Below, piece by piece: positions 25,547 through 43,174 of a DNA stretch of 64,000 nucleotides. The DNA comes from a virus. The stretch covers positions 24,898-88,897 of IMG/VR virus record IMGVR_UViG_3300020177_001482, one strand, 5' to 3'. The position numbers were made by a program, and so were the translations under genes. The notes below the pieces were generated by a model. That model was not told the origin of the DNA, did not search any database, and worked only from the letters and a program-made list of their open reading frames with translations. Positions within the stretch are counted from its first letter, which is position 1. Each line of letters starts with the position of its first letter.

Positions 25547-26181
25547 TATTAAAAAAAAACTTTTTTATTATAACAGCACATCCTGATGACATAGAAAGCG
25601 GTTGTGGAGGGCTAGTATCAAGGGTAATTGCTAGTGGAGGATCAGTGACCAATCTAATATTAGTGAAACCTTCTGCGGAACACAATGAAAAACGTGATCA
25701 ATTAATTGTTTCTGCGGAGTTAGAAAAAAGCAGTAAAATACTGAACTTCAAAACAATAATATATGACACACCGTTGCATGAAAATGGTAGGCCAAACTTG
25801 ATACTTTCGAATAACTTGATATCATACGTTGAATCACACATCAACAAACACGATATACTGATCTCGAATTGGAAGGAAGACCATCACCAAGACCACCGAG
25901 TGTGCTATGATGTCGCTAGGAGTGTTGCAAGAAAAGGTTTTGAACAATTCTGGTGCATAGACAGTCCGCTATACAACTTACACTACAAACAGTTCGATTG
26001 CAATCACTACGTGGACATCACAGATCATGTTCAACAAAAAAGAAAAGCCTTAGAATCATACGCCACATATTTCAGTGATACTTCTATTGACACTATAATT
26101 AACTATAACAAATTCAGAGGGAGTTTTTTAGGTGAAAATAAAGTTGCGGAAACATTTCATCTAATGTACAATAAAATATGA
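25543..26181 (+). CDS. LmbE/PIG-L-type deacetylase
   Basis: A 212-residue zinc hydrolase. The motif TAHPDDIESGCGG near residue 10 holds the metal-binding HPDD, and KEDHHQDHR near residue 113 supplies further His ligands. The family removes N-acetyl groups from GlcNAc-containing molecules. The gene is AT-rich compared with its upstream neighbours, which suggests recent acquisition. It overlaps the next epimerase gene by 4 bases, so the pair probably tailors an amino sugar. Confidence 0.9.
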   Translation: MILKKNFFIITAHPDDIESGCGGLVSRVIASGGSVTNLILVKPSAEHNEKRDQLIVSAELEKSSKILNFKTIIYDTPLHENGRPNLILSNNLISYVESHINKHDILISNWKEDHHQDHRVCYDVARSVARKGFEQFWCIDSPLYNLHYKQFDCNHYVDITDHVQQKRKALESYATYFSDTSIDTIINYNKFRGSFLGENKVAETFHLMYNKI

Positions 26182-27179
26182 GAATTTTAGTACTAGGAGG
26201 CTACGGATTCATAGGAAGTCATATTTGCCAGGAATTAAAAGCCGAGGGACACACTATAGGTATCGTGGATTGTTATCATCAATACCACACATTTCCTGAC
26301 TGGGAATACCATCCCGTTTTGAATCAGAGAAAATCTATAACACGCACCGACAAGGAATACATTGGACAAATAGAGAACCTACAGTTCATGGAACAAACGT
26401 TTGAGGATTTCAAACCGGACAGGGTTATCCACGTGGCCACGTATCCAAACGCAAGGATGGTCAAAAGGAATGTGCTTGACGCCACCAACAACATGGTGAC
26501 TGCCACCGCTTACATACTTGACCTATGTGTTAAACACAAAGTACAAAAAATTGTTTATGCATCAAGCAGTATGGTATATGGAGAGTTTGATAACAAGATC
26601 CCGGACGAATTCGTTGTGCCAAAACCAAACACACTCTATGGATCATACAAAAGGCAAGGCGAGATCATGTGCAAGATATGGCACAGGGAGTATGGACTGA
26701 ACTACATCATAATGAGACCTTCGGCATTATACGGAGAGAAAGACACAATCACTAGGGTCATAAGCCAATTGACCAAAGCCGCACTCACCACGGGCAAGAT
26801 GACTGTGCAGGGGCCAGACAATAAACTAGACTTCAGTAATGTTCTTGACGTGGCCAAGTATTTTGCCATGGCCACAACAAATGAAGTTATCAACGAAACT
26901 TTTAACTGCACCAGAGGAAATGGAAGGAAGATAGTGCATGCCGCGGAAATCATAAGAGACACATTAGGAGTTGGGGAGATCATTACAAAGCCACATGACT
27001 CATTCTATCCAAACAGAGACACTCTTAACAGTGACAAGGCCAAGTCGATGCTGAACTTCAACCCAACTATAGACATCGAAGAAGGCATACAAAATTACAT
27101 AAATTGGTTCATGAGACAGCCTTTTTATTTTGAGAATTTAGATATTAATAAAAAATTTCAGTTGGGTACAGCAATTTAA
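26178..27179 (+). CDS. NAD-dependent sugar epimerase/dehydratase, extended SDR
   Basis: A 333-residue protein. The Rossmann motif LGGYGFIGSH lies at the N-terminus, VYASSSMVYGE supplies the catalytic Ser, and LYGSYKRQGE contains the YxxxK pair. MRPSALYGE and LDFSNVLDVAKYF are typical of nucleotide-sugar epimerases. The substrate is unknown. It is the last + strand gene, and its end overlaps the end of the opposing - strand gene by 35 bases. Confidence 0.88.
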   Translation: MRILVLGGYGFIGSHICQELKAEGHTIGIVDCYHQYHTFPDWEYHPVLNQRKSITRTDKEYIGQIENLQFMEQTFEDFKPDRVIHVATYPNARMVKRNVLDATNNMVTATAYILDLCVKHKVQKIVYASSSMVYGEFDNKIPDEFVVPKPNTLYGSYKRQGEIMCKIWHREYGLNYIIMRPSALYGEKDTITRVISQLTKAALTTGKMTVQGPDNKLDFSNVLDVAKYFAMATTNEVINETFNCTRGNGRKIVHAAEIIRDTLGVGEIITKPHDSFYPNRDTLNSDKAKSMLNFNPTIDIEEGIQNYINWFMRQPFYFENLDINKKFQLGTAI

Positions 27180-28470
27180 ATTTGCTCCTGCAAAAATCCC
27201 ATGTGTATGTTTGAAGTATGATGTCTTCATTATAATCACTTTCCTCAGTAAATTTTTTGCCATCTAAGGCACCTTTGGCTAACCATTCGTTTTTGGTTCC
27301 TAACCATTTTTTCAATCTATACTGTCCCTCCACCGTGGGTTTTTTGTTCTGCCATAAAACTAACTTGCATACTTCTCTGAAAGCATTTTTCCATGCAGTG
27401 TAATTATCGGGTGCCAACACAGTTTCGTTTGAAATAATCGGTACGACTTCGTGCGGTTGGGATAAAGTAAAGTCTAAGATATTATCATCTGGCGTTTCCA
27501 TGCACAGTGTTTTATTGTACAAGTTGATGTTGAAGGTTCCGTACGCAATATTCAACTCCTGTAAATGTGCATAGAATATCCTGTGCCTTTTTGTTAATGC
27601 CCTGTCAACAGTGTAATCAAACATGAAAGTTTCCTTGACCTTGCTCTTTGCAAAAACGGCATAAAAATATTCTGTGCTTGATGTGGTGGACGCTTGTTTG
27701 TATGCCTGTGTCCTACCGTCTACGTTTCGTATCCAATGCAGTTTGTTTTTCAAGTTATTACGATATATGTGATTTTTCAGTAAGTCATAATTTTCTTGTT
27801 CAAATGGTTCTCCGTTAGAAATAAAGCAAATGTCAAAACAGTCTTTTTTGTCCGGAGTGCCAATGTCGTATATGAAGGGATAGTCATATATCTGTGTTTT
27901 TATATGTGACAGTGACTTGCCTGGCAAATAGAAAGTATTTCCTGACCTGTATATCTTCAAGTCTTCCCAGTAAGATGGATAGAACAAACCAACGTCTGAG
28001 GTCTCTGAATATTTCATGTATCTTGCCATGGGTATTTTGAATGTTAATATGTTTTCCATAACGTTGGACAAATCATAGTCTTGCTCTAGGTAATCAAAAT
28101 CATAATCAAAATTGTGTGTATGATAATTCACATCTTTGTAATCACGCAGGAACTTTATGTCTTGGTCGGCAAATTGTTTAGGGAATAAGAACGTATCACC
28201 TTCCTGCTGTTGTTCATTTGCCCAAACGTGAACCTGGGTGGCTTGATGCTGTTCTGGAATGTAATCAAAATCAAAATCACTGTAATCAACTTTACTGCTC
28301 AACATCCACTGGTATTCTGTGTGTGCCTCTAGTAACATTCTCTTCGCTATATGGAAATAACTGTCAACAAACGGTATGACCACCGCATGGGGAAACACAG
28401 ACTTTATCACTGCTATATTGTTCCTGCTTTTACTATTTCCAAAATCTACTGCTACGCAATCAAACACCAT
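27145..28470 (-). CDS. Glycosyltransferase-like protein with apparently degenerate DxD
   Basis: A 441-residue protein. The central segment FDICFISNGEPFEQEN and IRNVDGRTQAYKQAS aligns by eye with the GT-A-like protein at 40122-41021 (VYISYKEPNKEQN and KRVDGVVGFDNAHKAA). Where that protein has VDGD, this one has VFAK, so the metal-binding DxD appears lost. The N-terminal part repeats a related pattern (TEYQWMLSSKVDYSDFDFD), suggesting two tandem domains. It may bind glycan without transferring it. It overlaps the aminotransferase gene by 11 bases. Confidence 0.6.
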   Translation of the reverse strand: MVFDCVAVDFGNSKSRNNIAVIKSVFPHAVVIPFVDSYFHIAKRMLLEAHTEYQWMLSSKVDYSDFDFDYIPEQHQATQVHVWANEQQQEGDTFLFPKQFADQDIKFLRDYKDVNYHTHNFDYDFDYLEQDYDLSNVMENILTFKIPMARYMKYSETSDVGLFYPSYWEDLKIYRSGNTFYLPGKSLSHIKTQIYDYPFIYDIGTPDKKDCFDICFISNGEPFEQENYDLLKNHIYRNNLKNKLHWIRNVDGRTQAYKQASTTSSTEYFYAVFAKSKVKETFMFDYTVDRALTKRHRIFYAHLQELNIAYGTFNINLYNKTLCMETPDDNILDFTLSQPHEVVPIISNETVLAPDNYTAWKNAFREVCKLVLWQNKKPTVEGQYRLKKWLGTKNEWLAKGALDGKKFTEESDYNEDIILQTYTWDFCRSKFKLLYPTEIFY

Positions 28471-29542
28471 AGTACTCCTTGATGGAATCGCAAACGTATA
28501 AAACCTCGTTCTTCTTAAGGAAAGGATGTATGGGCAACGAGATCACGTCCTGACAGAACTTTTCTGCATTTGGCATTTCCTGTCCTGTGTAAAACATCTT
28601 CATCCTTGCCATGGATTGTGGATAATGTATTTGCGTCTGTATACCTTTGCCATCCAGGAACGCTTTGAGTCCGTCCCTGTCCTGTGCCCGAATAACAAGT
28701 TTGTGATTATTTGAAACAGTGTACAGACTCGATTCTATAGAACTGATTCCTGCGTCGTCTAATTTCCTAGTGTACCACTGCCTAACCTTTTTTGATCTAG
28801 ACAACAATGACTTATACTTGGAAAGTAAAAAATTCAAAATGTTGGCATGGTCGTTGCTCAGGCATGAGTTGTATCCGTATTCTAACTTGCCCGTGCCTTT
28901 GCCGTGATATCGTAGGCTACGGATAAACTTCGCTTCGTCAATGTCATCTGTAAGTACCATCCCCCCGTTGCCAAAACAAGGCAATGGTTTGCTTGGGGCA
29001 AAACTGAGACTGCTTATGTCACCTAATTTGCCACTTGGTATTTTTTTGTAAAAACTTCCGAGGCTCTGTGCGGCATCCTCTATGAGAGGTATTTTGTGTT
29101 TGTCACAGTACTGTCTTAGCCTATCATAATCTGCAAGATTGCCAAATAGGTTCACGTACACTAATGCATCGGGTAAGATTGTGGCAGGTAGATTTGCGAT
29201 CAATCCTTTCCTGTCAACATCAACGAAAGTTATTGTCGCTCCGGTCCTTTTAATCGCTTCCGCTGTGGCTAGATAACTGACCGCTGGACACAGCACATTT
29301 GATCCTGGTCCTATTCCTTTGGCCATTAAAGAAAAATAAAGTGCGTCGGTGCCACTACCTACCGCTACTCCATAGTTTCTCTTTGTGAATTTTGCTACAG
29401 ACTTTTCAAATTTGTCTAGCCAAGATCCTGCTGTATGGCTACTACTAACAACATCGCCTGATCTCCAAACTTCTTTTGCCCTACGTGTGATTCTCCAACT
29501 GTAGGCATCATAGATCCTATCCACTCCACCAAACTTAATCAT
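28460..29542 (-). CDS. DegT/DnrJ/EryC1-type sugar aminotransferase
   Basis: A 360-residue PLP enzyme. VAVGSGTDALYFSL binds the cofactor phosphate, LIEDAAQSLGSFY contains the PLP-ring Asp, and SFAPSKPLPCFGNGGM holds the Schiff-base Lys. The family makes amino sugars from keto sugars. Translation is coupled to the preceding lipoprotein-like gene (TGATG). Carbamoyltransferase and acetyltransferase genes upstream suggest a decorated amino sugar. Confidence 0.93.
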   Translation of the reverse strand: MIKFGGVDRIYDAYSWRITRRAKEVWRSGDVVSSSHTAGSWLDKFEKSVAKFTKRNYGVAVGSGTDALYFSLMAKGIGPGSNVLCPAVSYLATAEAIKRTGATITFVDVDRKGLIANLPATILPDALVYVNLFGNLADYDRLRQYCDKHKIPLIEDAAQSLGSFYKKIPSGKLGDISSLSFAPSKPLPCFGNGGMVLTDDIDEAKFIRSLRYHGKGTGKLEYGYNSCLSNDHANILNFLLSKYKSLLSRSKKVRQWYTRKLDDAGISSIESSLYTVSNNHKLVIRAQDRDGLKAFLDGKGIQTQIHYPQSMARMKMFYTGQEMPNAEKFCQDVISLPIHPFLKKNEVLYVCDSIKEYYGV

Positions 29543-29691
29543 CAGAATTCTTTCTTAACACCAACATGTGGATTCTCCACGCAACTGTTGGTTATTTCTT
29601 TTATTGTCTCTTTGTTTAAATCTACGTCACAACTGGCACTGGGTTTGATCCCACAACCCACACACAACAATAGTATTATTAGATATTTCAT
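29542..29691 (-). CDS. Small lipoprotein-like protein (49 aa)
   Basis: A 49-residue frame between two enzymes, overlapping each by 1 to 4 bases. The N-terminus KYLIILLLCVGCG is a short signal peptide ending in a lipobox-like LCVGC, so it may be a lipid-anchored envelope protein. Three later Cys could form a disulfide. Confidence 0.6.
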   Translation of the reverse strand: MKYLIILLLCVGCGIKPSASCDVDLNKETIKEITNSCVENPHVGVKKEF

Positions 29692-31160
29692 CCCAGTACT
29701 CTCACTCCGTATTTGTTGGTAAACGCTCTACCATCCGCCCTGTCATTCACAATTGGTTGTCCCTTTATATTCAAACTGGTGTTCAAAAGTATGGGGCAAC
29801 CCGTCTGTTTTTTCCATTCCGTCAACAACGCATGGAACCCTGGATTATCCGTCTTACGCACCGTTTGAACCCTACTTGTGTGATCATGATGTATTATGGC
29901 AGGGAAGTCTTTACCATGCGTACACGCCGCTGTAAATTGCATATAAGGGGTGTTTTGAACTGCTTTAGGTAGCTCAAAATACTCGTTTACATCCTCCTCT
30001 AATATGGCCGGAGCGAACGGTCTGAACTTCTGTCTTTTCTTGATGCTGTTTACCAGATCCTTGATGTCCTCACCCCTGGGATCGGCCAACAGCGATCTAT
30101 TACCAAGTGCCCTAGGACCAAACTCCGCCCTGCCGCTGGCCACTCCCACCATCTTGTTTTCCTTCAATTCTTTAATCAGGCTGTCCACCGGATACTCGCC
30201 ATCTATCTCGTGTCCCAGGAATGGGTGTTGCCAATCAAGATGCTTTTTCTCATGTGCGGCTATACAGCCTAGGCTTGATCCTGCGTCACCTGGGTTTGGA
30301 ACAATCCATATGTTGTCAAACAATCCCATGTTGGCCAACACCCTGTTGGCGGCACAGTTCAATGCTACACCGCCTGCATACACAAGATTACGTGATCCAT
30401 ACTTGCTGGCCCTGTGCCATAATTCTGCAAGGCATTCTTCTGTGACTGCCTGTATGCTGGCGGCTATGTCCATCACATCTGCATTTGGCTCCCAGTCGCT
30501 CAATCCCCTGTGTAGATTCTTTTTCAGTTTGAAAGGTGTCTGATACACGAAATCATCATAGATCTTTTGTTTGTATTTTGGTGTTCCGTACGCGGCCATG
30601 CCCATCAGGATGTATTCCTCTTCCGCTGGCTTGAGTCCACATCGATGTGTGAAAGCACTGTACAGTATTCCTATGCTGTGCGGATAGTTTAGTGTTTCTT
30701 TTCTTTCAACCAAGGTCTTGTCTGCCGTTGATATCGATACAGTCTCCCATTCTCCTATTGCATCCACTGTCAGTATTGTTGCTCCTGTGTCCTTGAAAGG
30801 TGACGTGAAGTATCCTGCCGCGGCGTGTGAGTCGTGGTGTTTCACGTACTCATCTATCTTGATTCCAAAGTGATCCAAGTGCCATTGTGGCATCTCGGTG
30901 TAACTCATGGCCAATCCGTACTGTCCCGCGTAGAACTGTCTGGTCTTCTTCAACAGTGGTAGTTCGTAATACACTACCTTATCAAATGGCCCAAAAGTTT
31001 TGGCCTCGTCCACTATCTTTTGGTTAAGGTAGTGATCGTTCTTGACCTTACTATAACGTTCCGCATGTGCGGCCCACAATATCTCACCCGTGCCAGAACT
31101 GTAATCCACCACAGCCATGGCGGCATCGTGATTCATGCAGTTGATTCCTAATATCTTCAT
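29688..31160 (-). CDS. NodU/CmcH-type carbamoyltransferase
   Basis: A 490-residue enzyme of the carbamoyltransferase family, with an ASKHA-like N-terminal domain (GINCMNHDAAMAVV, VKHHDSHAAAGYF, ILTVDAIGEWET) and a YrdC-like C-terminal part (FGPRALGNRSLLADPR, RPFAPAILEED, NTSLNIKGQPIV). The family carbamoylates hydroxyls of sugars or antibiotics using carbamoyl phosphate. In a phage the acceptor may be a surface sugar or a modified base. Its start overlaps the upstream gene by 4 bases. Confidence 0.93.
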   Translation of the reverse strand: MKILGINCMNHDAAMAVVDYSSGTGEILWAAHAERYSKVKNDHYLNQKIVDEAKTFGPFDKVVYYELPLLKKTRQFYAGQYGLAMSYTEMPQWHLDHFGIKIDEYVKHHDSHAAAGYFTSPFKDTGATILTVDAIGEWETVSISTADKTLVERKETLNYPHSIGILYSAFTHRCGLKPAEEEYILMGMAAYGTPKYKQKIYDDFVYQTPFKLKKNLHRGLSDWEPNADVMDIAASIQAVTEECLAELWHRASKYGSRNLVYAGGVALNCAANRVLANMGLFDNIWIVPNPGDAGSSLGCIAAHEKKHLDWQHPFLGHEIDGEYPVDSLIKELKENKMVGVASGRAEFGPRALGNRSLLADPRGEDIKDLVNSIKKRQKFRPFAPAILEEDVNEYFELPKAVQNTPYMQFTAACTHGKDFPAIIHHDHTSRVQTVRKTDNPGFHALLTEWKKQTGCPILLNTSLNIKGQPIVNDRADGRAFTNKYGVRVLG

Positions 31161-31492
31161 CTACCTATTTCCCATCCTAACACCACACCATAGTTCTCTT
31201 CGCCGTTGTGCTTTTCATATGCTGGAGAGATGAAAAGTCCTCCTGCCTTGTATCTGATCATTGGCAGTACGTCCTCTAATTCATATCCCGTCACCAACCC
31301 TATTTCTAGAGTCCAGTATTCATCCAGCTCAAATTCTCTGCCAACGTATGTGCTGATCCTGTCCTCGGAGTTGTAATACACACCTGCTATATTGTCGTCC
31401 ACTGTGCACCTTGCGTGTGGATGAATGTTGTTGTAATCCGCTTCCAGACCAACATGCATTGACAGTGCCAAGAACAATCCTAAACAGTTCAT
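31157..31492 (-). CDS. Small exported beta-strand protein
   Basis: A 111-residue protein. The N-terminus CLGLFLALSMHVGLEA is a likely signal peptide. The rest alternates strands (RISTYVGREFELDEYWTLEI, GLVTGYELEDVLPMIRY) and ends in GVVLGWEIG, as in small outer-membrane barrels. The ATG at 31492 overlaps the upstream TGA (ATGA), so the longer in-frame start is rejected. It may alter the host envelope. Confidence 0.6.
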   Translation of the reverse strand: MNCLGLFLALSMHVGLEADYNNIHPHARCTVDDNIAGVYYNSEDRISTYVGREFELDEYWTLEIGLVTGYELEDVLPMIRYKAGGLFISPAYEKHNGEENYGVVLGWEIGR

Positions 31493-32046
31493 TTGATGTT
31501 GAACCATCCTTTCGCCCTGTCCCTGAACTTCTCCCATTCATTCAACTCTACGTCATACTCGAAATTCTGTGTTGTGAGGTTGACCTGCACTTCCTTGGCT
31601 CCGTTCTTGAGATGGAACTTACGTGCCATGTCCGTGAGAGGACTCAACGTGATCAACCTGTTGAGATGGTTTGATTGTTTGATCATCTTGTACACTTCAT
31701 TGACCATGTGCTTTCCGCCACCTTTCTTCTTGGCCCACACCGTGTAGGCTATCGCTATAGAACCCTGTTGTCCTGCCCTGTGTATCGCCTGCATGGCGGC
31801 GTCTTTACTCATTGTGTCCATCTCCTCCACGCTCTTAGGTATGCCATGTGTGAATGCGAAACACATTACAGCCGCTATGTCTCCCTCCTCGTCCTTGATT
31901 CCGTATATCTTCCTGCCGTATGCCTGTCTGAACTCCAGACTAAGTTCAGGTCGCACAGGATCTTCCGTGACATCTATGTACGGCAGTTCGATCAGTTCGA
32001 ACCGGGGCGTCTTTTCCAACGCTTTCTTAATTTTTTTGAGCACCAT
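31489..32046 (-). CDS. GNAT-like N-acetyltransferase
   Basis: A 185-residue protein. SIAIAYTVWAKKKGGGKHMV matches the GNAT core, where a strand is followed by a Gly-rich pyrophosphate loop (KKKGGGKHM), and LTDMARKFHLKNGAKE is the usual late helix and strand. The substrate is unknown; an amino sugar from the DegT step is a reasonable guess. A 34-residue gene lies just upstream. Confidence 0.65.
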   Translation of the reverse strand: MVLKKIKKALEKTPRFELIELPYIDVTEDPVRPELSLEFRQAYGRKIYGIKDEEGDIAAVMCFAFTHGIPKSVEEMDTMSKDAAMQAIHRAGQQGSIAIAYTVWAKKKGGGKHMVNEVYKMIKQSNHLNRLITLSPLTDMARKFHLKNGAKEVQVNLTTQNFEYDVELNEWEKFRDRAKGWFNIK

Positions 32047-32047
32047 C

Positions 32048-32152
32048 CTATTTGTATATGAATGGATCTTTCTTCTTTAACTCTTTGAGTCTCTTCCTGT
32101 ATTTGATCTCTTGCCGGATCTTGTTGATCAGATTCTTTATCCAAGTGAACAT
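32048..32152 (-). CDS. Tiny basic protein (34 aa)
   Basis: A 34-residue, Lys/Arg-rich helix (WIKNLINKIRQEIKYRKR). The ATG overlaps the upstream TAA (TAATG), and it stops just before the acetyltransferase start. It is probably translated by coupling. The function is unknown. Confidence 0.5.
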   Translation of the reverse strand: MFTWIKNLINKIRQEIKYRKRLKELKKKDPFIYK

Positions 32153-32946
32153 TATCTGTCTCCTATCAGTTTGTTAAAAGTTGGTAACATTAATTTTACA
32201 GCATCTTGGTGTGCCTCGTCAAGTGGATGTGTGGTGCCACGTGGATAGTCATTCAAAAGTGCCCATTGATTGAAACCCATCATCCTCTCTCCAAAACTAT
32301 ACCATTTGGTAAAATCAATCTCACCATGCAATGCCTTCATTAAAGGATCCTGGTCTTTGTGTTGTTTCAATTCGTCATAAAACAAGGTATTGTCTGCCAG
32401 TGTGAACATGTATGGTATTTGTTTCTTCTCCAGAATATTCTGCAACCAGATTATGCTCTTCCAACTGAGGTAGGTCTCATGGTACGGGTTGGCCGCATAT
32501 TTGTATATGGCCTCGGCAAAAGGTTTTACCCCAGATTCTAGCATGTTGTTTTGTCTGGTTTTCCATTGCTCCTGCTGTGTCTCTGATCCCTGTATAGTCC
32601 TGAATGCTTCCTCGTTTCCCCTTGTCGTGTCCCATGGTGAGATACTTGTCCACCTTGTGTCCTCTAACATTCCATTCATGGGCATGGCCCAATCATAACG
32701 TGAGAGAAAACTCCACATGACCAGCACACAATCAACGTCTCTGTTCTGTGACACCGCCTTGAATGTCCTACGAGCTATAGCACTGTTGCCTGCTCCACCA
32801 GACGCAGTGCATATGTAGTCATCGTGTGTTGCTTCTGTGAGCCTGTAGGCCCATGCCTTCTTGGATGGTGTCTTGCCGCCCACATCATCCGAGAGTTCAT
32901 TCCCTAGCGTGAAACTGCAACCTCCTATAATTACTTTCTTACTCAT
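32152..32946 (-). CDS. SGNH-hydrolase-like protein
   Basis: A 264-residue protein. IIGGCSFTLGNEL is an SGNH block I with the nucleophile Ser, and CTASGGAGNSAIARR holds the Gly and Asn blocks. DCVLVMWSFLSRYDW begins the third block, and a late THPLDEAHQDA supplies a candidate His. SGNH enzymes are esterases or O-acetyl-processing enzymes. It directly precedes (in transcription it follows) a radical SAM gene, with an 8-base overlap. Confidence 0.7.
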   Translation of the reverse strand: MSKKVIIGGCSFTLGNELSDDVGGKTPSKKAWAYRLTEATHDDYICTASGGAGNSAIARRTFKAVSQNRDVDCVLVMWSFLSRYDWAMPMNGMLEDTRWTSISPWDTTRGNEEAFRTIQGSETQQEQWKTRQNNMLESGVKPFAEAIYKYAANPYHETYLSWKSIIWLQNILEKKQIPYMFTLADNTLFYDELKQHKDQDPLMKALHGEIDFTKWYSFGERMMGFNQWALLNDYPRGTTHPLDEAHQDAVKLMLPTFNKLIGDR

Positions 32947-34120
32947 ATATCCTCAGTATGTTATTTAAAAGTGGAAACATGTCTCCAAAATTTTCCTTCC
33001 GGTACTTGTCTGTCTGTAATATCCTCGCTTTACGTTGTTCTCTGATCTCTGGTGTGTCCCTATCAGCGGCGTTCATGAAACGTATGCTGGGCTGATAATC
33101 AGTCAGCATGTGATACCTGTCTGTAACTATGTCCTTGACCTGTCGTGGCAGTGTTTGAATATTAAACACATCTGGATCAAAGCAAGTGTTTACGTAAAAA
33201 AAATTGGGTTGAAACTGTGCCACCCATAACGCTATCTTGGCCCAGTTAAACACATTGAATATTGATACTGTTGAACATATCTGGAAGTCCATGTTAGGTG
33301 TTTTCATTTCTTTGAACTTGACAAGATTTCCATTTACCTCCCTCCAATTGGCAGGATGCCTCTGGTATTCGAAAGGTTCTCCAACGTCATCGATGCTGAA
33401 CGCTACTTCTACGTGTTTAAAATAACTCCAAAGATCGAAAATATCTTGCGGTGGCAACTGTGTACCGTTAGTGTTATAATGAATGTCAATGTTCCTTGCA
33501 TATCCCTTTTCAACACAATGCATCAGGATCTTAAAGTGATCCTTAATCATGAACGGTTCTCCGCCCGTGAATTCGAAGTACTCAACATGCTTGAGATCAT
33601 CCTGCAACTCCTCGAAGAACTGTGGATTGCGTTTTGGCCATCCACCTTCCTTGAGTTGCATCCTTGCTAGTGGGTTATCTCCACCCTTGGCCGTCTCATA
33701 ATCTATTTCCTCCTGTGCCCACTTGCTGGAACTCCAGGAACCGCATATCCTACACTTTAAATTACACACGTTGCCTAACTTAAAATCAATAAATTTCAGC
33801 GTTGGCTCGTTATTAGGTGTCCAGTCTGTAAGACTAGTCTTCATCTTGTACAGTGAATTTTGTCTTTTACTTGTCTTTCCTGCATTTTCTTCTTGCCAAC
33901 AACTTTGACACCCTTTAGGACGTTCACCGTTACGGAACTGCTCACGTAAATTTTCCATATATGCATTGTCTTGAATTGACTTAAGACTCTGTTCGAACAC
34001 TTTGACATCAGGTACACTTCCTTTGTATAGACAGCATGGAGATGCTCCACCGTTAACATCAACCTCAAGATGTGTCCAAGGTAGCGGACACACATTTGAT
34101 TTTATATACTTGTCCACCAT
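32939..34120 (-). CDS. Radical SAM protein A with N-terminal SPASM-like region
   Basis: A 393-residue protein. The N-terminal region has the SPASM-like order Cys11 (VCPLPWTH), Cys29-Cys30 (GGASPCCLY) and Cys71/Cys74 (GCQSCW). It is followed by the radical SAM CxxxCxxC at Cys119, Cys123 and Cys126 (GNVCNLKCRICG). FEFTGGEPFM is the SAM-binding GGEP motif. SPASM normally follows the core; here it comes first. The C-terminus carries YRKENFGDMFP, a motif shared with the other four paralogues. The substrate is unknown. It overlaps paralogue B by 19 bases. Confidence 0.85.
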   Translation of the reverse strand: MVDKYIKSNVCPLPWTHLEVDVNGGASPCCLYKGSVPDVKVFEQSLKSIQDNAYMENLREQFRNGERPKGCQSCWQEENAGKTSKRQNSLYKMKTSLTDWTPNNEPTLKFIDFKLGNVCNLKCRICGSWSSSKWAQEEIDYETAKGGDNPLARMQLKEGGWPKRNPQFFEELQDDLKHVEYFEFTGGEPFMIKDHFKILMHCVEKGYARNIDIHYNTNGTQLPPQDIFDLWSYFKHVEVAFSIDDVGEPFEYQRHPANWREVNGNLVKFKEMKTPNMDFQICSTVSIFNVFNWAKIALWVAQFQPNFFYVNTCFDPDVFNIQTLPRQVKDIVTDRYHMLTDYQPSIRFMNAADRDTPEIREQRKARILQTDKYRKENFGDMFPLLNNILRIYE

Positions 34121-35442: not shown

Positions 35443-36712
35443 ATAACTCCGTGAGTTCTGGGAATACATCGAGAATATTTTCATCCCTGATCACATCCAA
35501 TTTATTCATTGCTTGTCTGAACTGTGGCAGGTCTTTACTGTTGTCCCTTCTCATCATGTAATCTATGCCTGATTCAAATCCTTTGGTTGCCCTAGTGAGA
35601 CTATCTAGAGGACGTAACCATTCAATATGTTTTTGATACTTTTCTTTCACCTTGTCTTTGAACGTTTCAGGCAACAGGTCAATTCTTTGTGCATAAGGAA
35701 ACTGTAACAAATTGAAGTTAAAATCCTGTGGTTTTAGCAATCCTTGATCTACCCAATTTCTATGGAAGTCAGGAATGTGTAGGGCATTTATAAGTCCAAC
35801 TGTAGAACTGATATAAAAGTCAACCTGTGGGCACACCTCTAACATCCTCTTTCTGTTAGCAACAATATCATTCCACACAGTTCCTTTACGCATGAACTCT
35901 CCACGTTTGCCTTCTGCATCTAGGCTGGCACCTATTGACACGGAATCAAACTTATTCCAAAGTTCAAGTACATCTATGTCCTTAAATTTTGTTTTAGTAA
36001 AATTCGTGTTGTAAATTAATCTTACGTGGTACATTTTACGCTTGTCTAATTCTTTCAATATCCTATAGTGCTCTTCCATTATTATTGGTTCACCACCAGC
36101 AAAATAAAATTGTTCTACATGCTCAAACTGATCTAACATCTGTTCCCATATGTCGTCACTGCTCCGTCCCACTTTCATTATCTTTGCATGGTTAGGAGGA
36201 GAACCTGTGAGTTTCTTGTGGTCTTCATACCAGTTACTACTGAACCATGTTCCGCAACTCCTACAGGCCAGGTTACATAGGTTACTAAATCTTATATCCC
36301 AATACTTGATAACAAAATCTGCTGTGCCGTCTGCCTGTGTGTTTTCAACCATTCCAATATTGTGTCCGAAGTGTTTGTTAGAGCTCAGTCGCAGGCTAAA
36401 AAATCCTGACTTCTCTTGGTCGTAACATTTAGAACAGTGTTTGCTGGCCTTGTTTGCCAGCATGTTCTTTCTGATGCCTTTCATCTCCTCGTTGTTGAAT
36501 ACTTCTGCCATGGAATTCTTGTTGAGATCACCTACTGGATATTTGTCCAATGCAAAACAACAAGGATACGCTCTACCGTCAGGGAAAGCATGTATGTGCA
36601 ACCATGGCATCATACAGAACGTGTCACTGTCTATCAACAACCCCTTTTCTTTGGACGTCATGTCTTTGATCTTTAGTTTCTCGGGCTCTTTGGCCCCATA
36701 ATCATAGGCCAC
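35429..36712 (-). CDS. Radical SAM protein C with N-terminal SPASM-like region
   Basis: A 427-residue paralogue. Cys33 lies in TFCMMPWLHIHAFPDG, Cys51-Cys52 in AYPCCFA, and Cys93/Cys96 in HCSKC, all before the core. The core has Cys146, Cys150 and Cys153 in FSNLCNLACRSCG, then FYFAGGEPIIM. This is the clearest SPASM-like spacing of the five (CxxxPW...DG..YPCC...CxxC). The C-terminus ends ENILDVFPELTELY. It overlaps D by 11 bases and B by 14 bases. Confidence 0.87.
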   Translation of the reverse strand: MAYDYGAKEPEKLKIKDMTSKEKGLLIDSDTFCMMPWLHIHAFPDGRAYPCCFALDKYPVGDLNKNSMAEVFNNEEMKGIRKNMLANKASKHCSKCYDQEKSGFFSLRLSSNKHFGHNIGMVENTQADGTADFVIKYWDIRFSNLCNLACRSCGTWFSSNWYEDHKKLTGSPPNHAKIMKVGRSSDDIWEQMLDQFEHVEQFYFAGGEPIIMEEHYRILKELDKRKMYHVRLIYNTNFTKTKFKDIDVLELWNKFDSVSIGASLDAEGKRGEFMRKGTVWNDIVANRKRMLEVCPQVDFYISSTVGLINALHIPDFHRNWVDQGLLKPQDFNFNLLQFPYAQRIDLLPETFKDKVKEKYQKHIEWLRPLDSLTRATKGFESGIDYMMRRDNSKDLPQFRQAMNKLDVIRDENILDVFPELTELYEKD

Positions 36713-38045
36713 GGTACCACTCTCCTATAATTGGGAAAGTCTTTTCAAAGTCCTTGCCTGATCGTTTGTCGTACTGACTGTAGAATTCCTTGAAGTCTTT
36801 CTGTAGTTTGCTCTGTTCGGCCGCATCCGCATGCGGTGTTTTCACAACATCAAGGTAGTCGATTAATCTCTGTGTTTGATCTATTTCCATGCTCTCCAAC
36901 CATCTGTTATTATTAGTTAAGAACTTTACCAAACCACCCTTAAATTTATTTCTAAGTTCATCTGGCAGTACAAGGGGTGACTGAAAACTAGGGAACCGCA
37001 ATATATTGAGTGTGAAATTGATTGTTGGTCCGTATACTTTGCTCGCACTCTTGAACCAAACCATCTTCTCTAAAAACTCAGGCAGTGTTTCTAAACACAA
37101 AGCATTTATGGTTGCCATGTTGTGTATTTCAGAAGGTACTTTGTCCACCATCATGTGTAAAAGGTTAGAATGCCATGTTCCAAAGTCCAATCCATCTCTG
37201 ATGTATTCTGCCTGTTGAAACGTTGCTTCGCAACTTGTGTACAAATGAAAGTTCTTGAACCCTTTCAGTTTCGTTTTGAATCTATCTATAATGCTTTGTT
37301 TCGCTCCTAGATTAGAGTTGATAGCAATACGCATGTCTGGGTTTATTTTGTCCCCCTGTGTTTCTATCCAATCCAACAACCTCCATAAGTTAGGAGACAT
37401 CATTGGCTCTCCACCCGTGATCCTTAATTCATCCAAACTCTTGTGCAGATCCGATTCCCACCACTTGTAGAATGCCTCGATGTATGGATTTGTCTCGTCC
37501 TTTTTATATGGTTCCGCTGAATCGTGTGCATGGGTGAAATGGTTACGTCCGTCTGACTTCAATCCTGTGTATGGCCCTTGTCTTTTGATGTTGTTTGCCC
37601 ACGTAGAACTGAATTGAGGATTACAATACGTACAGGCAAAATTACATGTCCTGTCAAATGCAATCTCAAGTGTTTTCAAATTAACATTATCCTTATAAGG
37701 TGATTCATATGCATTTTGTAGATCATCATTGGTGAATATCTTAGATTTATATACCCTGTCGCTTATGTTGTCTCTGCCAACATCTTCTATCTTCCAGCAG
37801 TACTCACATCCTGCAGGCCTCTCACCACACTGCATCTGTCTTCGTTGTTCTTTCTTTTGTCTTGTGTTGTGTATCGCACTTGGGTTTGTTTTTATCTCTT
37901 CGAGGTCAATCTTGTGTGGTAGTGGATGATGACAACTTGTGGTCATTCCACTGCCTAACCATATTGTAGCATTATACCACTTGGCTCCACAGAAACTTGC
38001 ACTCTTTGGATCTAGTATTTGTTTTTTATATTCAAGATCGTCCAT
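36702..38045 (-). CDS. Radical SAM protein D, variant N-terminal Cys region
   Basis: A 447-residue paralogue. The N-terminal region is a variant: SFCGAKWYNATIWL, TSCHHPLPHKI and GCEYCW replace the CxxPW and CC forms, pairing it with E. Radical SAM Cys134, Cys138 and Cys141 lie in RTCNFACTYCN, and LRITGGEPMM follows. The C-terminus has YDKRSGKDFEKTFP. It overlaps the SGNH-like gene upstream by 14 bases. Confidence 0.87.
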   Translation of the reverse strand: MDDLEYKKQILDPKSASFCGAKWYNATIWLGSGMTTSCHHPLPHKIDLEEIKTNPSAIHNTRQKKEQRRQMQCGERPAGCEYCWKIEDVGRDNISDRVYKSKIFTNDDLQNAYESPYKDNVNLKTLEIAFDRTCNFACTYCNPQFSSTWANNIKRQGPYTGLKSDGRNHFTHAHDSAEPYKKDETNPYIEAFYKWWESDLHKSLDELRITGGEPMMSPNLWRLLDWIETQGDKINPDMRIAINSNLGAKQSIIDRFKTKLKGFKNFHLYTSCEATFQQAEYIRDGLDFGTWHSNLLHMMVDKVPSEIHNMATINALCLETLPEFLEKMVWFKSASKVYGPTINFTLNILRFPSFQSPLVLPDELRNKFKGGLVKFLTNNNRWLESMEIDQTQRLIDYLDVVKTPHADAAEQSKLQKDFKEFYSQYDKRSGKDFEKTFPIIGEWYRGL

Positions 38046-38772
38046 CTTTTCCTTTGAAGTAGTCTTTTAACTTGTTGTATTCGTCTGTAGGACAAAGTAT
38101 TTCACTCCTAAACATAATGTCCTTGACCCAGTGGTAGTGTGCTATTGGCGGAGGGTGTGATTCGCCTGGCATGTAGTATTCTTTATAATTATCTTGCCCA
38201 AATTCCCACAATCCTTTTTTGTCTTCATAAAAAATAAACTTTGTCCAGTCTATGTGATTGTACAAAGTTTGTTCACTATTACTGTGGAAATTATGATTTA
38301 TGACATTCTTGTTGAACACCATCATTGTGTATGGTATTCTTTTCTTATCAAGGAATAGTTGTGTCCTTAAAATATGTTCAAGTGTTCTATAACTTTGATG
38401 CTGTTCATTCCAAAAATGTCGTCTAAAATAATCATGCTTGTCGGCAAGTCTATGTCCTCCGAACCAAGTGCTCCATTTGAAATCATCATCCCAGACACGA
38501 TAGGTTATACGTCCATCTAAATTATCGACGCCTTCGTCGAGAGTTATCACCTCATACCTGTCGGCTCCGGACCACATAATGTACATGTGTGCGATTTCCC
38601 TGTGTTTCATTGCACTGTTGATCACTGCCCTTGATATTGTTTCGTTCCCGCTGGCCGATCTGCCCTTGTTGAGCATGTGTGACCCACCGTCGAACCATGG
38701 GATAAATTTAGGCCAGCAATCCCATTTGAATCTTGTGAAACTGCAACCGTGTGCAACTGTAATATCAGGCAT
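38032..38772 (-). CDS. SGNH-hydrolase-like protein
   Basis: A 246-residue relative of the protein at 32152. The start VAHGCSFTRFKWD contains the GCSFT block I, RSASGNETISRAV supplies the Gly/Asn block, and a late ESHPPPIAHYHW gives candidate catalytic His residues. It lies between radical SAM genes D and E, with overlaps of 14 and 8 bases, so the two enzyme types probably act in one pathway. Confidence 0.68.
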   Translation of the reverse strand: MPDITVAHGCSFTRFKWDCWPKFIPWFDGGSHMLNKGRSASGNETISRAVINSAMKHREIAHMYIMWSGADRYEVITLDEGVDNLDGRITYRVWDDDFKWSTWFGGHRLADKHDYFRRHFWNEQHQSYRTLEHILRTQLFLDKKRIPYTMMVFNKNVINHNFHSNSEQTLYNHIDWTKFIFYEDKKGLWEFGQDNYKEYYMPGESHPPPIAHYHWVKDIMFRSEILCPTDEYNKLKDYFKGKDGRS

Positions 38773-40135
38773 TCATACACTCCTTCCAAAATTCTTCCAT
38801 TTCAGGGAACGTGTTCAAGAACCTAGTAGAACGCCTGCGATCGTGTTCGTTAAAAAAAGCGTAAAAGTTTTTTTTATTTTGCGTACTTTCGTCCGCGTTT
38901 TCGCGCCAGTATGCGAGATTCCTCTGCATCTTTTGTATCTCGAAGTCCTTGAATATGTGTAACCCGTTCGACTCGCCGGAATTTAACTGCATGTACTTTA
39001 TATTATCTTCATGTATTGCCTGATACGACTCTGGTAGCAGTGTGATCTGTTGCCATGCGGGTTGACGTAGCAGTGGCACATCGAACCACACCCTCTGGTA
39101 TGTCTTCGAGTACTTGGTACGTAGTTCCAATATCTTCTCCAGCAGTTTGTCCATGCTTGTTATACTGAGGTTGTTGTAAGTGCATATGAACGTTATTGAA
39201 TTTCGACCTGGTATCCTGTCCAAGAACTCCTCCACATTGTCCATCATGCGGTCAAATTCCAGACCGTCACGTATGTACTCAGCACGTTCGCCGAATGCGT
39301 CAACACTCACGAACTGCATCATGTGTTCCACCTTCTCCTGCATACATATTTCATGTGCCATGTTGAAGTACTTCTCCTTCAACTTCTTGTCCGGAGGACA
39401 CATATTGCTAGTGACGTTTAGATGCAGGTCTTTTTTAGGGTGGTCCATTATGTATTGGAACACTTTGTAAGTGTTCTTGTCCATCATGGGTTCTCCACCG
39501 GTCATACGGAAGTGCTTTAGATTCTTGTACAGTGTTGGCCACCATCTCCAGAAAGCGGTCACGTAGGGGTTGTCCTCCCTGTTGGGTATGGGCCTACGCC
39601 TGCCCTGGAAGTGTTCTGGTGCGTTGTGGGGAGGGGTGGTAGGATATTCGCCGTATCTGTCCACCTCCTTGGCCCACGTTGTCGAGAACTGTGGTGAACA
39701 ATAACTGCACTTGAAGTTACAAGCGTTGTTGAAGTTCACCTCAACATATCTCGGCGTCCAACGTTCGTCTATTGGATTCTTTCTGATGTCATCAAAGTCC
39801 TGCATTGCCCATGGCTCTCCGGACCTGTAGTGCCTGTCACTCATCTCCCCGGTCTTCTCAATGTTCCAGCAGTATGAACAACCGTCCGGTTGCTGTCCTT
39901 GGAGCATCTGTTGTCGCTGTTGCAGTTTTTCCTGTGTGTTGTGCAATGCCGCGGGATTTGAATTCAATTGGTCGGCGTCTATCTCGTGCAGTGGCGGATG
40001 GTAGCACGAGTTCGTAAGTCCCGTGGGTAGGTGCAGTGACGTCTGGTTCCACTTTGCCAGACACATGGTCGGGGAAACTTCTTGCAGTCTATCCTTGACT
40101 TTCAAGGCGTCTGCTTTGTAATCACTGGTACTCAC
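38765..40135 (-). CDS. Radical SAM protein E, variant N-terminal Cys region
   Basis: A 456-residue paralogue closest to D by pattern: TMCLAKWNQTSLHL, NSCYHPPLHEI and GCSYCW precede the core. Radical SAM Cys139, Cys143 and Cys146 are in NNACNFKCSYCS, and FRMTGGEPMMD follows. The C-terminus has NEHDRRRSTRFLNTFPEM. D and E form one subgroup; A, B and C form another. Confidence 0.87.
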   Translation of the reverse strand: MSTSDYKADALKVKDRLQEVSPTMCLAKWNQTSLHLPTGLTNSCYHPPLHEIDADQLNSNPAALHNTQEKLQQRQQMLQGQQPDGCSYCWNIEKTGEMSDRHYRSGEPWAMQDFDDIRKNPIDERWTPRYVEVNFNNACNFKCSYCSPQFSTTWAKEVDRYGEYPTTPPHNAPEHFQGRRRPIPNREDNPYVTAFWRWWPTLYKNLKHFRMTGGEPMMDKNTYKVFQYIMDHPKKDLHLNVTSNMCPPDKKLKEKYFNMAHEICMQEKVEHMMQFVSVDAFGERAEYIRDGLEFDRMMDNVEEFLDRIPGRNSITFICTYNNLSITSMDKLLEKILELRTKYSKTYQRVWFDVPLLRQPAWQQITLLPESYQAIHEDNIKYMQLNSGESNGLHIFKDFEIQKMQRNLAYWRENADESTQNKKNFYAFFNEHDRRRSTRFLNTFPEMEEFWKECMNA

Positions 40136-41021
40136 GATCTTGCACTCCCTTGTTAATGTGTTGTGGCATTATAAATCTGTAGAACTTGCTGTCATCCTCG
40201 CAATACTCTGCTATAGGTATGTCCAGTTGTTGTCTTAGGCTGTTACCAAACAAATGTAACTGGTCATCTATGTTTTCTATATCCACTTGATTGAAATAAT
40301 TTTGCATCTCATCAAGATCCCTTATCTTGAAAAATTCATTATTGGGTTCAAGCACAGTGTAGAAACAACCCATCCTCGCACCCAGCATAGCATATTTGCC
40401 ATTGTCTATGTCCGCCCCTATTGTACACCAAGTGCTTAACATTTTTAAATTTTGTCTCCAAATGGACTTAGAATAGTTTTTGGCTGTAATAGGTTTTCCC
40501 TTGTCAGTACTCATCTTGACACCTTCCCTGTAGCCTGCCACAAACGCCTGTTGTGGTGTTGCATTTATGACTGTCGTGGAATAGCAGTTGTGCAGATTCT
40601 CGTGTGGCACTCCCCAGCAGAAATCTATCTGGTTTTCTTCGGTGTCAGCGTTTTCGTGTGTTCGCATGTTTAGGCAAGTGTCTTTAGACCAACCAACCAA
40701 TCCTCCATTGCCGTACACCAACCCATTTATGTTGTTCCTTGCTCTCCACCTGTGTACTGCTTTCTTGTTTGTCTTGTTCCAATCCAGTGTCTCCAAAAGG
40801 AATCTTTCATCTATGATGTTGTCACCGTCGACGCTTATGAAGAAATCGGTCTCCGCCACGTCTGCCGCGGCCTTGTGTGCGTTGTCAAAACCCACCACGC
40901 CGTCAACACGCTTGACCCAGGGCACCTTGTTCTTGAGGTCCGCCCAGTTCTGTTCTTTGTTGGGCTCCTTGTAACTGATGTACACGAAATCGAGGTCGCT
41001 TATTCTCGTTCTATCTGCCAT
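40122..41021 (-). CDS. GT-A-like glycosyltransferase
   Basis: A 299-residue protein. LDFVYISYKEPNKEQNW begins a GT-A fold, and TDFFISVDGDNIID contains the DxD-type metal site. GLVYGNGGLVGWSK resembles the acceptor loop. The substrate is not evident. It is homologous by pattern to the protein at 27145-28470, which has lost the DxD. It overlaps the small gene upstream by 22 bases and radical SAM gene E by 14 bases. Confidence 0.72.
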   Translation of the reverse strand: MADRTRISDLDFVYISYKEPNKEQNWADLKNKVPWVKRVDGVVGFDNAHKAAADVAETDFFISVDGDNIIDERFLLETLDWNKTNKKAVHRWRARNNINGLVYGNGGLVGWSKDTCLNMRTHENADTEENQIDFCWGVPHENLHNCYSTTVINATPQQAFVAGYREGVKMSTDKGKPITAKNYSKSIWRQNLKMLSTWCTIGADIDNGKYAMLGARMGCFYTVLEPNNEFFKIRDLDEMQNYFNQVDIENIDDQLHLFGNSLRQQLDIPIAEYCEDDSKFYRFIMPQHINKGVQDREYQ

Positions 41022-41302
41022 GTGACTCCCCCTTCCCCTATGTTGTTAGGCCAGTGTATGTCGCCGTCCTGGAAGAAATAACCTTTGCTTGACTTTTTCA
41101 ATGTCCTATACTGTGTCTTTGGATTTAGCGTGGGTTTGACCACAATCTCACCATCCCGCAACATGAGGTTCTGCTCGCCGTACTGTCGTGCCCACAATTT
41201 CTTGGCATGGGTAACCTCATGCTGTTGGCCTTCGACTGTCACAAAAAACTTCTTTGGTGCACGTTTTGGCATTTTTTTCAGTGCATCAAATAATCCTGGC
41301 AT
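41000..41302 (-). CDS. Small hypothetical protein
   Basis: A 100-residue basic protein containing KRAPKKFFVTVEGQQHEVTH and ending in a beta-rich DGDIHWPNNIGEGGV. The ATG at 41302 is set by AAGGAG 5 bases upstream; longer in-frame starts at 41317 and 41341 are rejected. The function is unknown. Confidence 0.6.
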   Translation of the reverse strand: MPGLFDALKKMPKRAPKKFFVTVEGQQHEVTHAKKLWARQYGEQNLMLRDGEIVVKPTLNPKTQYRTLKKSSKGYFFQDGDIHWPNNIGEGGVTWQIERE

Positions 41303-42080
41303 GTAACTCCTTGTCATGATAGTGCCACAGCCTGCTGACACGTGTCTCTCCGATGTACACGGAATCTCCCGTGCGGTTTGGGTACAGGTATTCGTTCTGA
41401 TCCTTGGTTCTCATGGTGCCGTTTACCCCAGGCTTGTGGTGTATGAATTTGAACCAATCATAATCAATCAACTCTTTAGCAGTGGGATCCATAATTCTGT
41501 GTGCCAAGGCAAAAACAACGTCTGTGCTGGGATATCTGTCATGGCAAGAGATCAACATTTCAGTTTTGACCTTTTCCCAATTCTTGACTATATGTTCTGC
41601 TATCTCATAGAACCTCTGTGCTTTCGCACTCTTACGGAAGTACATCAGACCATTGTAGATGTTGGGCAAGTGATTCCTTGTGAACAATTTCCTATATGGT
41701 GTCTGTTTCACCACATTGCCTCTATAGTCAAAACAGTTGACACTGAACACTAAATCGTGTTGCCACAAGTGATACCACCACCAATCCGTGTTGATCGTCC
41801 ATAACATGTCTGCTTCTAATTTTATCGTATGGGTAAAAGGTGTGATACGAAACGCCTTGTACTCGTTGGCCCACTTGATTTCATGCGAAGCACTGTCGTC
41901 TTGTCTCATCATTTTTACGACATCCACGTGTTGATTTTCGAATTTGCTTTTCTCGTCCGTGACCACACATATCTGATTGTCTCTGTTCCAACGCTTGATG
42001 CTCTTGGCCAAGGTTATAGACAGTTCAACGTAGTCAGTCTTGTCGTTGTTCTGTGCGAACCAAAGGAATCCCCTAGACAT
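41286..42080 (-). CDS. Glycosyltransferase, GT-A-like
   Basis: A 264-residue protein. WFAQNNDKTDYVELSITLAK and NQICVVTDEKSKF resemble the N-terminal strands of GT8/GT-A-type enzymes. TIKLEADMLW supplies an E-x-D metal-site candidate. LPNIYNGLMYFRKSAKA is the usual asparagine-bearing acceptor strand. The donor sugar is unknown. It overlaps the gene upstream by 8 bases. Confidence 0.62.
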   Translation of the reverse strand: MSRGFLWFAQNNDKTDYVELSITLAKSIKRWNRDNQICVVTDEKSKFENQHVDVVKMMRQDDSASHEIKWANEYKAFRITPFTHTIKLEADMLWTINTDWWWYHLWQHDLVFSVNCFDYRGNVVKQTPYRKLFTRNHLPNIYNGLMYFRKSAKAQRFYEIAEHIVKNWEKVKTEMLISCHDRYPSTDVVFALAHRIMDPTAKELIDYDWFKFIHHKPGVNGTMRTKDQNEYLYPNRTGDSVYIGETRVSRLWHYHDKELHARII

Positions 42081-42825
42081 TGGCTATCTCCTTGTTTAAT
42101 ACATGCACATCTTGGTCTTTGACAAATGAAATCTGATCTTTGTACCGCCAGGCCAGGCCGTTGTCGGTCATTTCGATGATTTCACAATCACGTGGCAGTG
42201 TTGGCAGTGCGAATGGCATCTTCTCATATCCCATGAATCCGTTGACCTGTTGCAGTGCCATCGCAAACAGGTAATCATTACGCAGGTTCCTAGCGTATAT
42301 CCTGTACATCTCCCTGAAGTAACTGTAGTTCTCCTTGATGTATTTCACGGTGTCAAATATCTTCCTGACCTTTTCGTTCTTCTTGAACAGTAGCAAAGTG
42401 GCCCACACCATGGGTATCATACTCCACCTTCTCTGATCAAAACTGTCTCTGCCTGTCAAGTCGTGTGCCGTGCCTGGTACCAGGAAATCATATTCAGTGT
42501 CAAACAAGTTTTTCAAATTATCAGAGAAACAGAAGTAGTCAATGTCCATGACCAATGTTGTGTCGTATGGGGACAATTCATAGGACATGTGCCTGTCCAC
42601 ATTGTTCCAGGGTTCACCATTCAATTTGTTGCCCAATTCTGGCTCTATGAACTTGTACTCTATGAAACCTAGGGGACTCATCCTGCTGAAGGTTTCAAAG
42701 TTGGTGACCACCGTTATGTTTTTCGAGATGTTTTTCTTGACCAATCGGACACAACGTTCCAGGATCTTGTGATACCTTGTGTGTTCCGTGTCAAAACAGA
42801 ATAGCAATACTCCTTGCGTCATCAT
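42073..42825 (-). CDS. Glycosyltransferase, GT-A-like
   Basis: A 250-residue relative of the previous protein. KNITVVTNFETFSR is the first strand region, and TTLVMDIDYFCFSD holds a DxD metal site (DID). WATLLLFKKNEKVRKIF matches the later helix. Three transferases of this group in 3 kb indicate a multi-step glycan. Confidence 0.65.
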   Translation of the reverse strand: MMTQGVLLFCFDTEHTRYHKILERCVRLVKKNISKNITVVTNFETFSRMSPLGFIEYKFIEPELGNKLNGEPWNNVDRHMSYELSPYDTTLVMDIDYFCFSDNLKNLFDTEYDFLVPGTAHDLTGRDSFDQRRWSMIPMVWATLLLFKKNEKVRKIFDTVKYIKENYSYFREMYRIYARNLRNDYLFAMALQQVNGFMGYEKMPFALPTLPRDCEIIEMTDNGLAWRYKDQISFVKDQDVHVLNKEIANV

Positions 42826-43139
42826 TCACCTTTTCTTGTAAAAGTTTCGTACATCTGGTGATATGCGTTCAAGGCCTCCTGGTTCCGTTCAATCAGTGTT
42901 TTCAAAAAATCATCAGCGTCCTTGATCTCTACTGGATTGTTGTTTGTGTCCAGTATGAAAAATTTACCGTTATTTTCCTTCAGTGTCCTAACTATGCATA
43001 TGGTCTGGGCGTCCGCACGGAACAGATTGCCGTTGTACGCCAACACCTGTCGTGCGTGTGCCTTCTCCAGAGCGTTGCGTTTGGCGACCGCTATATCATA
43101 AGATAGGTCTGATTGTTTTTTGAGTTCGCGAATATCCAT
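42822..43139 (-). CDS. Hypothetical protein from a leaderless promoter
   Basis: A 105-residue protein. The first half is helical and charged (DIRELKKQSDLSYDIAVAKR), and the second half has FFILDTNNNPVEIKDADDFL. The ATG at 43139 is the base where transcription is predicted to begin. The in-frame TTG at 43154 lies in the spacer before the -10 box and is rejected. It overlaps the glycosyltransferase start by 4 bases. Confidence 0.6.
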   Translation of the reverse strand: MDIRELKKQSDLSYDIAVAKRNALEKAHARQVLAYNGNLFRADAQTICIVRTLKENNGKFFILDTNNNPVEIKDADDFLKTLIERNQEALNAYHQMYETFTRKGE

Positions 43140-43145
43140 ACCACA

Positions 43146-43174
43146 ATTATACAATAATTATGGTGGTATAGCAA
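43146..43174 (-). promoter_or_regulatory. sigma70-like promoter, predicted leaderless (- strand)
   Basis: On the - strand: TTGCTA (43174-43169), a 17-base spacer, TATAAT (43151-43146), then exactly 6 bases to the ATG at 43139. It is the only strong promoter seen ahead of the island from 43.1 to 27.1 kb. Confidence 0.75.

Follow-up and report, generated by a model that had tools for sequence, protein, structure and literature searches.

What might a virus do with a long run of sugar-transferring and radical S-adenosylmethionine (radical-SAM) genes, and on which molecule would their products act? The question is raised by a window of 64,000 nucleotides (the whole stretch analysed here, bases 24898–88897 of the 88.9-kb virus record IMGVR_UViG_3300020177_001482), which carries genes for a DNA polymerase of the T4 family, tail-fibre-like proteins and a 3845-aa virion protein. 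The closest polymerases from cultured phages, approximately 46–51% identical, are those of jumbo phages of Sinorhizobium and Agrobacterium. The island of sugar-transferring and radical-SAM genes is real, and the unit to which it belongs is bigger than first described, as it starts at st317 (45103), a fibre-like gene preceded by a T4-type late promoter. Many uncultured T4-like viruses that infect aquatic bacteria have such a set, in strict order, beside their tail-fibre genes. We propose that the whole unit, from approximately 45160 to 27145 on the minus strand, is a late/middle operon of the phage whose products make a sugar with amino/carbamoyl and radical-SAM modifications and attach it to a fibre. 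We give this reading a probability of about 0.5; what the enzymes act on, which protein accepts the sugar and what is gained (a change in adsorption or shielding of the fibres) are all presumed.

Directly upstream of the unit lies fib542 (45108–46736; this and all further coordinates are on the minus strand unless marked otherwise), a tail-fibre-like protein with PHROG matches to tail fibre and virion structural families. Inside its 3' end, upstream of st317, is the T4/cyanophage-type late promoter motif CATAAATA (45154–45161). In 39 of 51 relatives the heptamer ATAAATA, which forms the core of the late promoter NATAAATA of T4 and cyanophages (PMC2984593), lies 55–61 nt ahead of st317. In 1.1 Mb of close loci there is no copy on the antisense strand, where 177 would be expected, and there are few on the sense strand (72 versus 230 expected), with 39 of the 72 lying at this place before st317. 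Since the site codes for (H/D)KY, codon choice was checked: [NDHY]KY tripeptides are spelled with ATAAATA in 38 of 38 cases at the fib542 C-terminus and in 0 of 174 elsewhere, which rules out that the motif is a by-product of the peptide. The T4 consensus TATAAATA does not occur on either strand of the 1.1 Mb of close loci (L009–L066); the avoidance there of both TATAAATA and antisense ATAAATA is a strong signal, which could serve to map late promoters.

The first-pass annotation had placed the promoter of the island at 43146–43174. A sigma-70-like promoter of sm110 does exist at this site, its -10 box ending 6 nt before the likely ATG at 43139, and an exact TATAAT precedes sm110 in 35 of 40 relatives, but it is not the start of the unit, as st317 and the late-promoter motif lie upstream. 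The -10 box overlaps an imperfect inverted repeat (43139–43174), a candidate operator or hairpin whose arm sequences differ between relatives, and a transcript starting here would be nearly leaderless.

From 43154 to 27145 there are 17 minus-strand open reading frames, in the order sm110, GT250, GT264, sm113, GT299, rS5, SGNH2, rS4, rS3, rS2, rS1, SGNH1, a GNAT-like gene, sm126, a carbamoyltransferase (CarbT), a DegT aminotransferase and GT441. Most junctions overlap, as first described (-4 to -56 nt), and gaps of 105 nt and 145 nt lie at GNAT/SGNH1 and DegT/CarbT. In the 58 close viral contigs recovered by a scan with rS3 (L009–L066), gene order is the same apart from optional genes and contig ends, and runs fib542, st317, sm110, two glycosyltransferase (GT) genes, GT299 and the radical-SAM genes. 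A scan with fib542 yielded 67 contigs that extend for 3.5 kb or more beyond it on the downstream side; GTs lie beside fib542 in all 67, and rS5 is present in all 55 that have room for it. A scan with GT299 confirmed at least 596 encoded relatives in viral contigs; among the matches listed are 68 divergent contigs, at about 40–48% identity, with the fibre gene in 51, st317 in 60, sm110 in 62, a GT264-type gene in 66 and GT299 in all 68. The near-constant core among these listed matches is thus st317, sm110, two GT8-fold enzymes and GT299, while N_Twi-type radical-SAM genes occur in 51 of the 68 and a second GT299-like gene is often next where they are missing. Comparison with relatives therefore shows a set that moves together, not one whose members are scattered singly. 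No match to GT299 (three diverse queries), GT264, sm110 or st317 was found in 50,697 phage records, and rS3 matched only two Vibrio phages there, at 23% identity.

The fibre-like gene itself (st317, 44150–45103) encodes a Ser/Thr-rich structural candidate (24% S+T) without a PHROG match. Pairwise protein distances were compared by partial Mantel tests corrected for rS5 distance (499 permutations, minimum possible p 0.002). St317, sm110, GT250, GT264 and sm113 track one another (0.47–0.64, p 0.002), with values of 0.47–0.59 (p 0.002) for st317 against the other four. St317 does not co-vary with the adjacent fib542 (r 0.01, p 0.43), and sm113 tracks the adjacent GT299 weakly (0.18). The distances show two modules, and st317 has therefore been inherited together with its GTs. 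All of the genes compared are under purifying selection and the enzymes look intact (ratio of nonsynonymous to synonymous substitution rates 0.02–0.27 against close relatives, with st317 at the top at about 0.21–0.27).

The four glycosyltransferase-like proteins first recognised by eye are borne out by structure prediction for two of them and by homology for the others. The AlphaFold model of GT264 (41286–42080; predicted local distance difference test score, pLDDT, 91.3) matches glycogenin, LARGE1 and GlyE with Z 14.7–16.2 over approximately 190–215 residues, the glycogenin match reaching Z 16.2 over 200 residues. That of GT299 (40122–41021; GT2-like; pLDDT 90.5) matches many GT-A enzymes over residues 3–175 with Z up to 10.2, and has this fold in common with a PBCV-1 enzyme; its first Foldseek match is the peptide S-glycosyltransferase SunS, at a low TM-score. 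Both are thus modelled as GT-A nucleotide-sugar folds, although a fold does not prove activity or acceptor. GT441 (27145–28470), a larger relative, is homologous to GT299 (profile E 2e-27) and GT250 (42073–42825) to GT264, from which a GT-A/GT8-like fold can be predicted for GT250; at the DxD position GT250 has DID and GT264 has EAD, one Asp being invariant. Searches of PDB sequences with the GT299, GT264 and SGNH profiles gave no meaningful match, nor did a Pfam scan of GT250/GT264 rows give any above noise.

The five radical-SAM enzymes were likewise correctly named: all belong to NF033640 (N_Twi_rSAM), at 297–420 bits against a curated cut-off of 170 bits. They are rS1 (32939–34120, 360 bits), rS2 (34102–35484, 306 bits), rS3 (35429–36712, 420 bits), rS4 (36702–38045, 298 bits) and rS5 (38765–40135, 328 bits). 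In 51–57 relatives of each paralogue the CX3CX2C motif and four N-terminal cluster cysteines (seven in total) are invariant, and the N-terminal part aligns with the twitch region of BtrN (E 0.004). In a quick maximum-likelihood tree, in which rS2 sits on a long branch, the paralogues fall into different clades mixed with Bdellovibrionota sequences, only rS4 and rS5 sharing one. The tree places them as old separate lineages interleaved with bacterial copies, which rules out recent tandem duplication of a single gene. Two fusions link these activities to others in the unit: in Bacteriovoracaceae a single 934-aa polypeptide comprises carbamoyltransferase, SPASM and radical-SAM parts, and in a viral contig (L051:7966–10011) SGNH2 is fused to rS4, with the SGNH Ser and His blocks lost. 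The C-terminal part of another radical-SAM fusion, in L095, has no Pfam match. Several longer related records have 6–12 radical-SAM genes each, and an A-type carrier gene is present in 4 of 9. A bacterial radical-SAM protein with a Gly/Cys-rich repeat N-terminus (MGGCGGGCGSGCGSGCGDG...) was also seen (L074:376–1485).

For the remaining genes, enzyme names are supported by Pfam and NCBIfam where matches are given. The sugar aminotransferase of the DegT/DnrJ/EryC1/StrS family (28460–29542; PF01041, E 1e-73) keeps its pyridoxal phosphate lysine in 33 of 33 rows, its best NCBIfam models being LegC/PseC, under the cut-off. CarbT (29688–31160) is an O-carbamoyltransferase of NodU/CmcH type with both Carbam_trans_N and Carbam_trans_C domains (E 2e-43 and 1e-54) and HHxSHA in 46 of 46 rows. 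Both were named as such at the outset, as were the two SGNH-like proteins, whose sole match in Pfam or NCBIfam, to DUF6071, falls below the cut-off and which keep S11, N54, H240 and H246 in all 21 aligned rows. SGNH1 (32152–32946), with its invariant Ser, Asn and His, is present in 51 of 58 loci, while SGNH2 (38032–38772) occupies an optional slot between rS5 and rS4 that holds SGNH2 in 16 of 58 loci and another GDSF protein in 15. The GNAT-like protein (31489–32046; 34/58 loci) was assigned by eye, and Pfam gives no GNAT match. Enzymes of sugar type occupy other variable slots (Gfo/Idh, cupin, cytidylyltransferase-like, FkbM and other methyltransferases). Among the small proteins, sm110 (42822–43154) is conserved in 53 of 58 close loci and sm113 (41000–41341) evolves fast (50/58 loci, 29–72% identity). 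The suggestion of small exported proteins is largely unsupported, since no product of the unit passes a simple transmembrane threshold in a hydropathy scan and only sm126 (31157–31537; 7/58 loci) has a hydrophobic N-terminus. OX309 (43185–44114), between st317 and sm110, is sporadic (2/58 relatives); it looks like a possible 2-oxoglutarate-Fe(II) oxygenase by sequence, without a Pfam or PHROG match. Two convergent neighbours lie on the plus strand, a PIG-L family sugar de-N-acetylase (25543–26181; PF02585, E 3e-13) and an NAD-dependent sugar epimerase/dehydratase (26178–27179; PF01370, E 5e-38).

These parts suggest the following pathway. The DegT aminotransferase, epimerase, PIG-L protein and variable partners would make an amino/deoxy nucleotide sugar, from which cytosolic GT250, GT264, GT299 and GT441 would assemble a short glycan. 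Its carrier would be a newly synthesised fibre protein, in the first place st317 and possibly fib542 as well. Carbamoyl and acyl groups would be put on or removed by CarbT and by the GNAT-like and SGNH-like proteins, and these same sugars would undergo C-H chemistry by the N_Twi enzymes; the phage might benefit through a change in adsorption or through shielding of its fibres. Fibres are made in the cytosol and, as no membrane component is present, this is probably also where the chemistry takes place. A cytosolic late/middle pathway with sugar-nucleotide slots and fixed transferases beside a fibre gene is best fitted by fibre decoration, and the nearest GT264 folds (glycogenin, LARGE1, GlyE) glycosylate proteins or glycoproteins. 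Decoration of fibres was one of three roles initially suggested, beside a change of the host envelope and the making of a small molecule. Three things speak for it, namely that the unit begins with a late promoter just before st317, that st317 and the GTs have evolved together, and that membrane components are lacking; the acceptor itself is presumed. Tentatively, the radical-SAM and GT8-like enzymes could act jointly on the virion fibre, giving a receptor-binding surface with a virus-specific radical-modified glycan or amino acid, the fibre and its enzymes being exchanged as a block.

Several observations weigh against fibre decoration with radical-SAM-modified sugars. Linkage within one recombination or exchange block could account for the joint evolution of st317 and the GTs, and st317 has no known homologue outside the system, so that its location in the virion is a presumption. 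N_Twi genes are present in bacteria without these GTs, no literature describing a substrate was found for any N_Twi enzyme, and 17 of the 68 divergent contigs among the matches listed have no radical-SAM gene in the stretch covered, so that this chemistry may be dispensable to the core. Bacterial N_Twi loci showed no conserved partner except other radical-SAM genes and occasional carbamoyltransferases.

It is also conceivable, although rather unlikely, that the enzymes remodel the host envelope, altering lipid-linked O-antigen or another surface glycan, for example to block other phages. Glycosyltransferases of pelagimyophages (PMC7029224) and cyanophage clusters (PMC7824862) have been read in this way, nucleotide-sugar genes are typical of such functions, a PagP-annotated gene lies near a divergent radical-SAM cluster in Vibrio phage K566, and a DUF481 protein is found among the radical-SAM genes of L098. 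However, the hydropathy scan points to no flippase, polymerase, ligase or membrane protein among the unit products, the late promoter motif and invariable linkage to fibre genes speak against this explanation, and the GT block co-varies with st317. Alone or besides glycosylation, the radical-SAM enzymes might instead modify the fibre polypeptide (e.g. through cross-links or epimerised or methylated residues), which we consider unlikely. Peptides or proteins are frequent substrates of SPASM/twitch enzymes, five old and distinct lineages would be expected if each modified a different site, and SunS heads the GT299 Foldseek list, if at a low TM-score; yet the closest solved relatives, besides a peptide maturase, include viperin-like enzymes, cytosylglucuronate decarboxylase and BtrN, all acting on small molecules, and the CarbT–radical-SAM fusion suggests that the substrate is a small molecule or a sugar. 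For the radical-SAM role we thus prefer sugar modification, with peptide modification second. A diffusible natural product made during infection, either a ribosomally synthesised and post-translationally modified peptide (RiPP) or an aminocyclitol-like compound, is improbable. The enzyme mix resembles secondary metabolism, a carbamoyltransferase cluster of cyanophages has been read likewise (PMC7824862), and sm113 evolves fast, but the operon shows no precursor peptide, recognition-element match or exporter, and its linkage to fibres is fixed. No RiPP precursor peptide or recognition element matched in Pfam, although precursors below 50 aa were not systematically searched for.

The closest known kind of system is the 'host recognition cluster' of pelagimyophages, likewise T4-like aquatic phages, which also joins tail fibres, glycosyltransferases and radical-SAM cassettes (PMC7029224). 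That cluster is described as non-syntenic and hypervariable (PMC7029224), whereas here the order is fixed in 58 contigs, only some slots vary and there are five distinct N_Twi genes. T4-like environmental genomes can hold many radical-SAM genes and sometimes Fe-S carriers, as here (up to 12, plus carriers), TARA_ERS488813_N000010 having 12; the accessible portion of that report discusses Fe-S metabolism and, unlike the present case, describes no fibre-linked operon or promoter (PMC5332604). Bdellovibrionota NF033640 arrays (up to about ten genes) also set several subfamilies side by side, in several cases with a NodU-type carbamoyltransferase in the same locus, but have no fibre gene and no GT250/GT264 pair. 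Cyanophage clusters such as that of S-SSM6a likewise place a NodU/Nol-type carbamoyltransferase, approximately 28–31% identical to the one here, in T4-like marine phages; they have a halogenase and oxygenases, and the available text describes no tandem radical-SAM set (PMC7824862). For the PBCV-1 capsid and XacN1 glycoproteins, modification of virion proteins by glycosyltransferases of the virus has been suggested or demonstrated, as we propose here, although they are of different families and the text accessible to us mentions no radical-SAM enzymes (PMC5852040). Clusters for O-antigen (Gtr-type) conversion or export have membrane flippases or polytopic proteins, of which the hydropathy scan detected none here.

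The view of the first-pass annotation that the gene set resembles a natural-product or polysaccharide pathway more than ordinary phage cargo must thus be tempered, as GT/fibre islands and several radical-SAM genes are known from T4-like marine phages (PMC7029224, PMC5332604). Published work already covers fibre and GT islands that include radical-SAM cassettes, as well as T4-like genomes in which radical-SAM genes abound; in a partial literature search we found no mention of an operon of fixed order, of its promoters, of the block that co-evolves, of an old set of paralogues or of the near absence from cultured phages. As GT299 and its neighbours are widespread among environmental viral contigs (at least 596 relatives of GT299), and GT299 has no match in the 50,697 phage records, the trait may have escaped laboratory work, and it is possibly a major trait of aquatic T4-like viruses that is invisible to laboratory study. 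If fibres are decorated, phage host recognition would be tied to radical-SAM chemistry, the N_Twi_rSAM family would gain a function, and a long-standing guess on marine myophage glycosyltransferases would become directly testable.

Some further observations concern the same record or its relatives. L068–L072, L098, L120 and L128 are filed under bacterial metagenome-assembled genomes and carry the phage operon; they look like phage sequence binned with bacteria. Elsewhere in the window, a QueE-like radical-SAM gene (phrog_2076, 15107–16006) is possibly part of 7-deazaguanine DNA modification. The left part of the record encodes a 1163-aa protein (L007:8816–12307) with a lipoprotein-like N-terminus and, by eye, subtilisin-like Asp/His/Ser motifs, an unusual cargo for a phage, and a gene resembling Cu/Zn superoxide dismutase by eye lies in the same phage record (L008:1199–1753).

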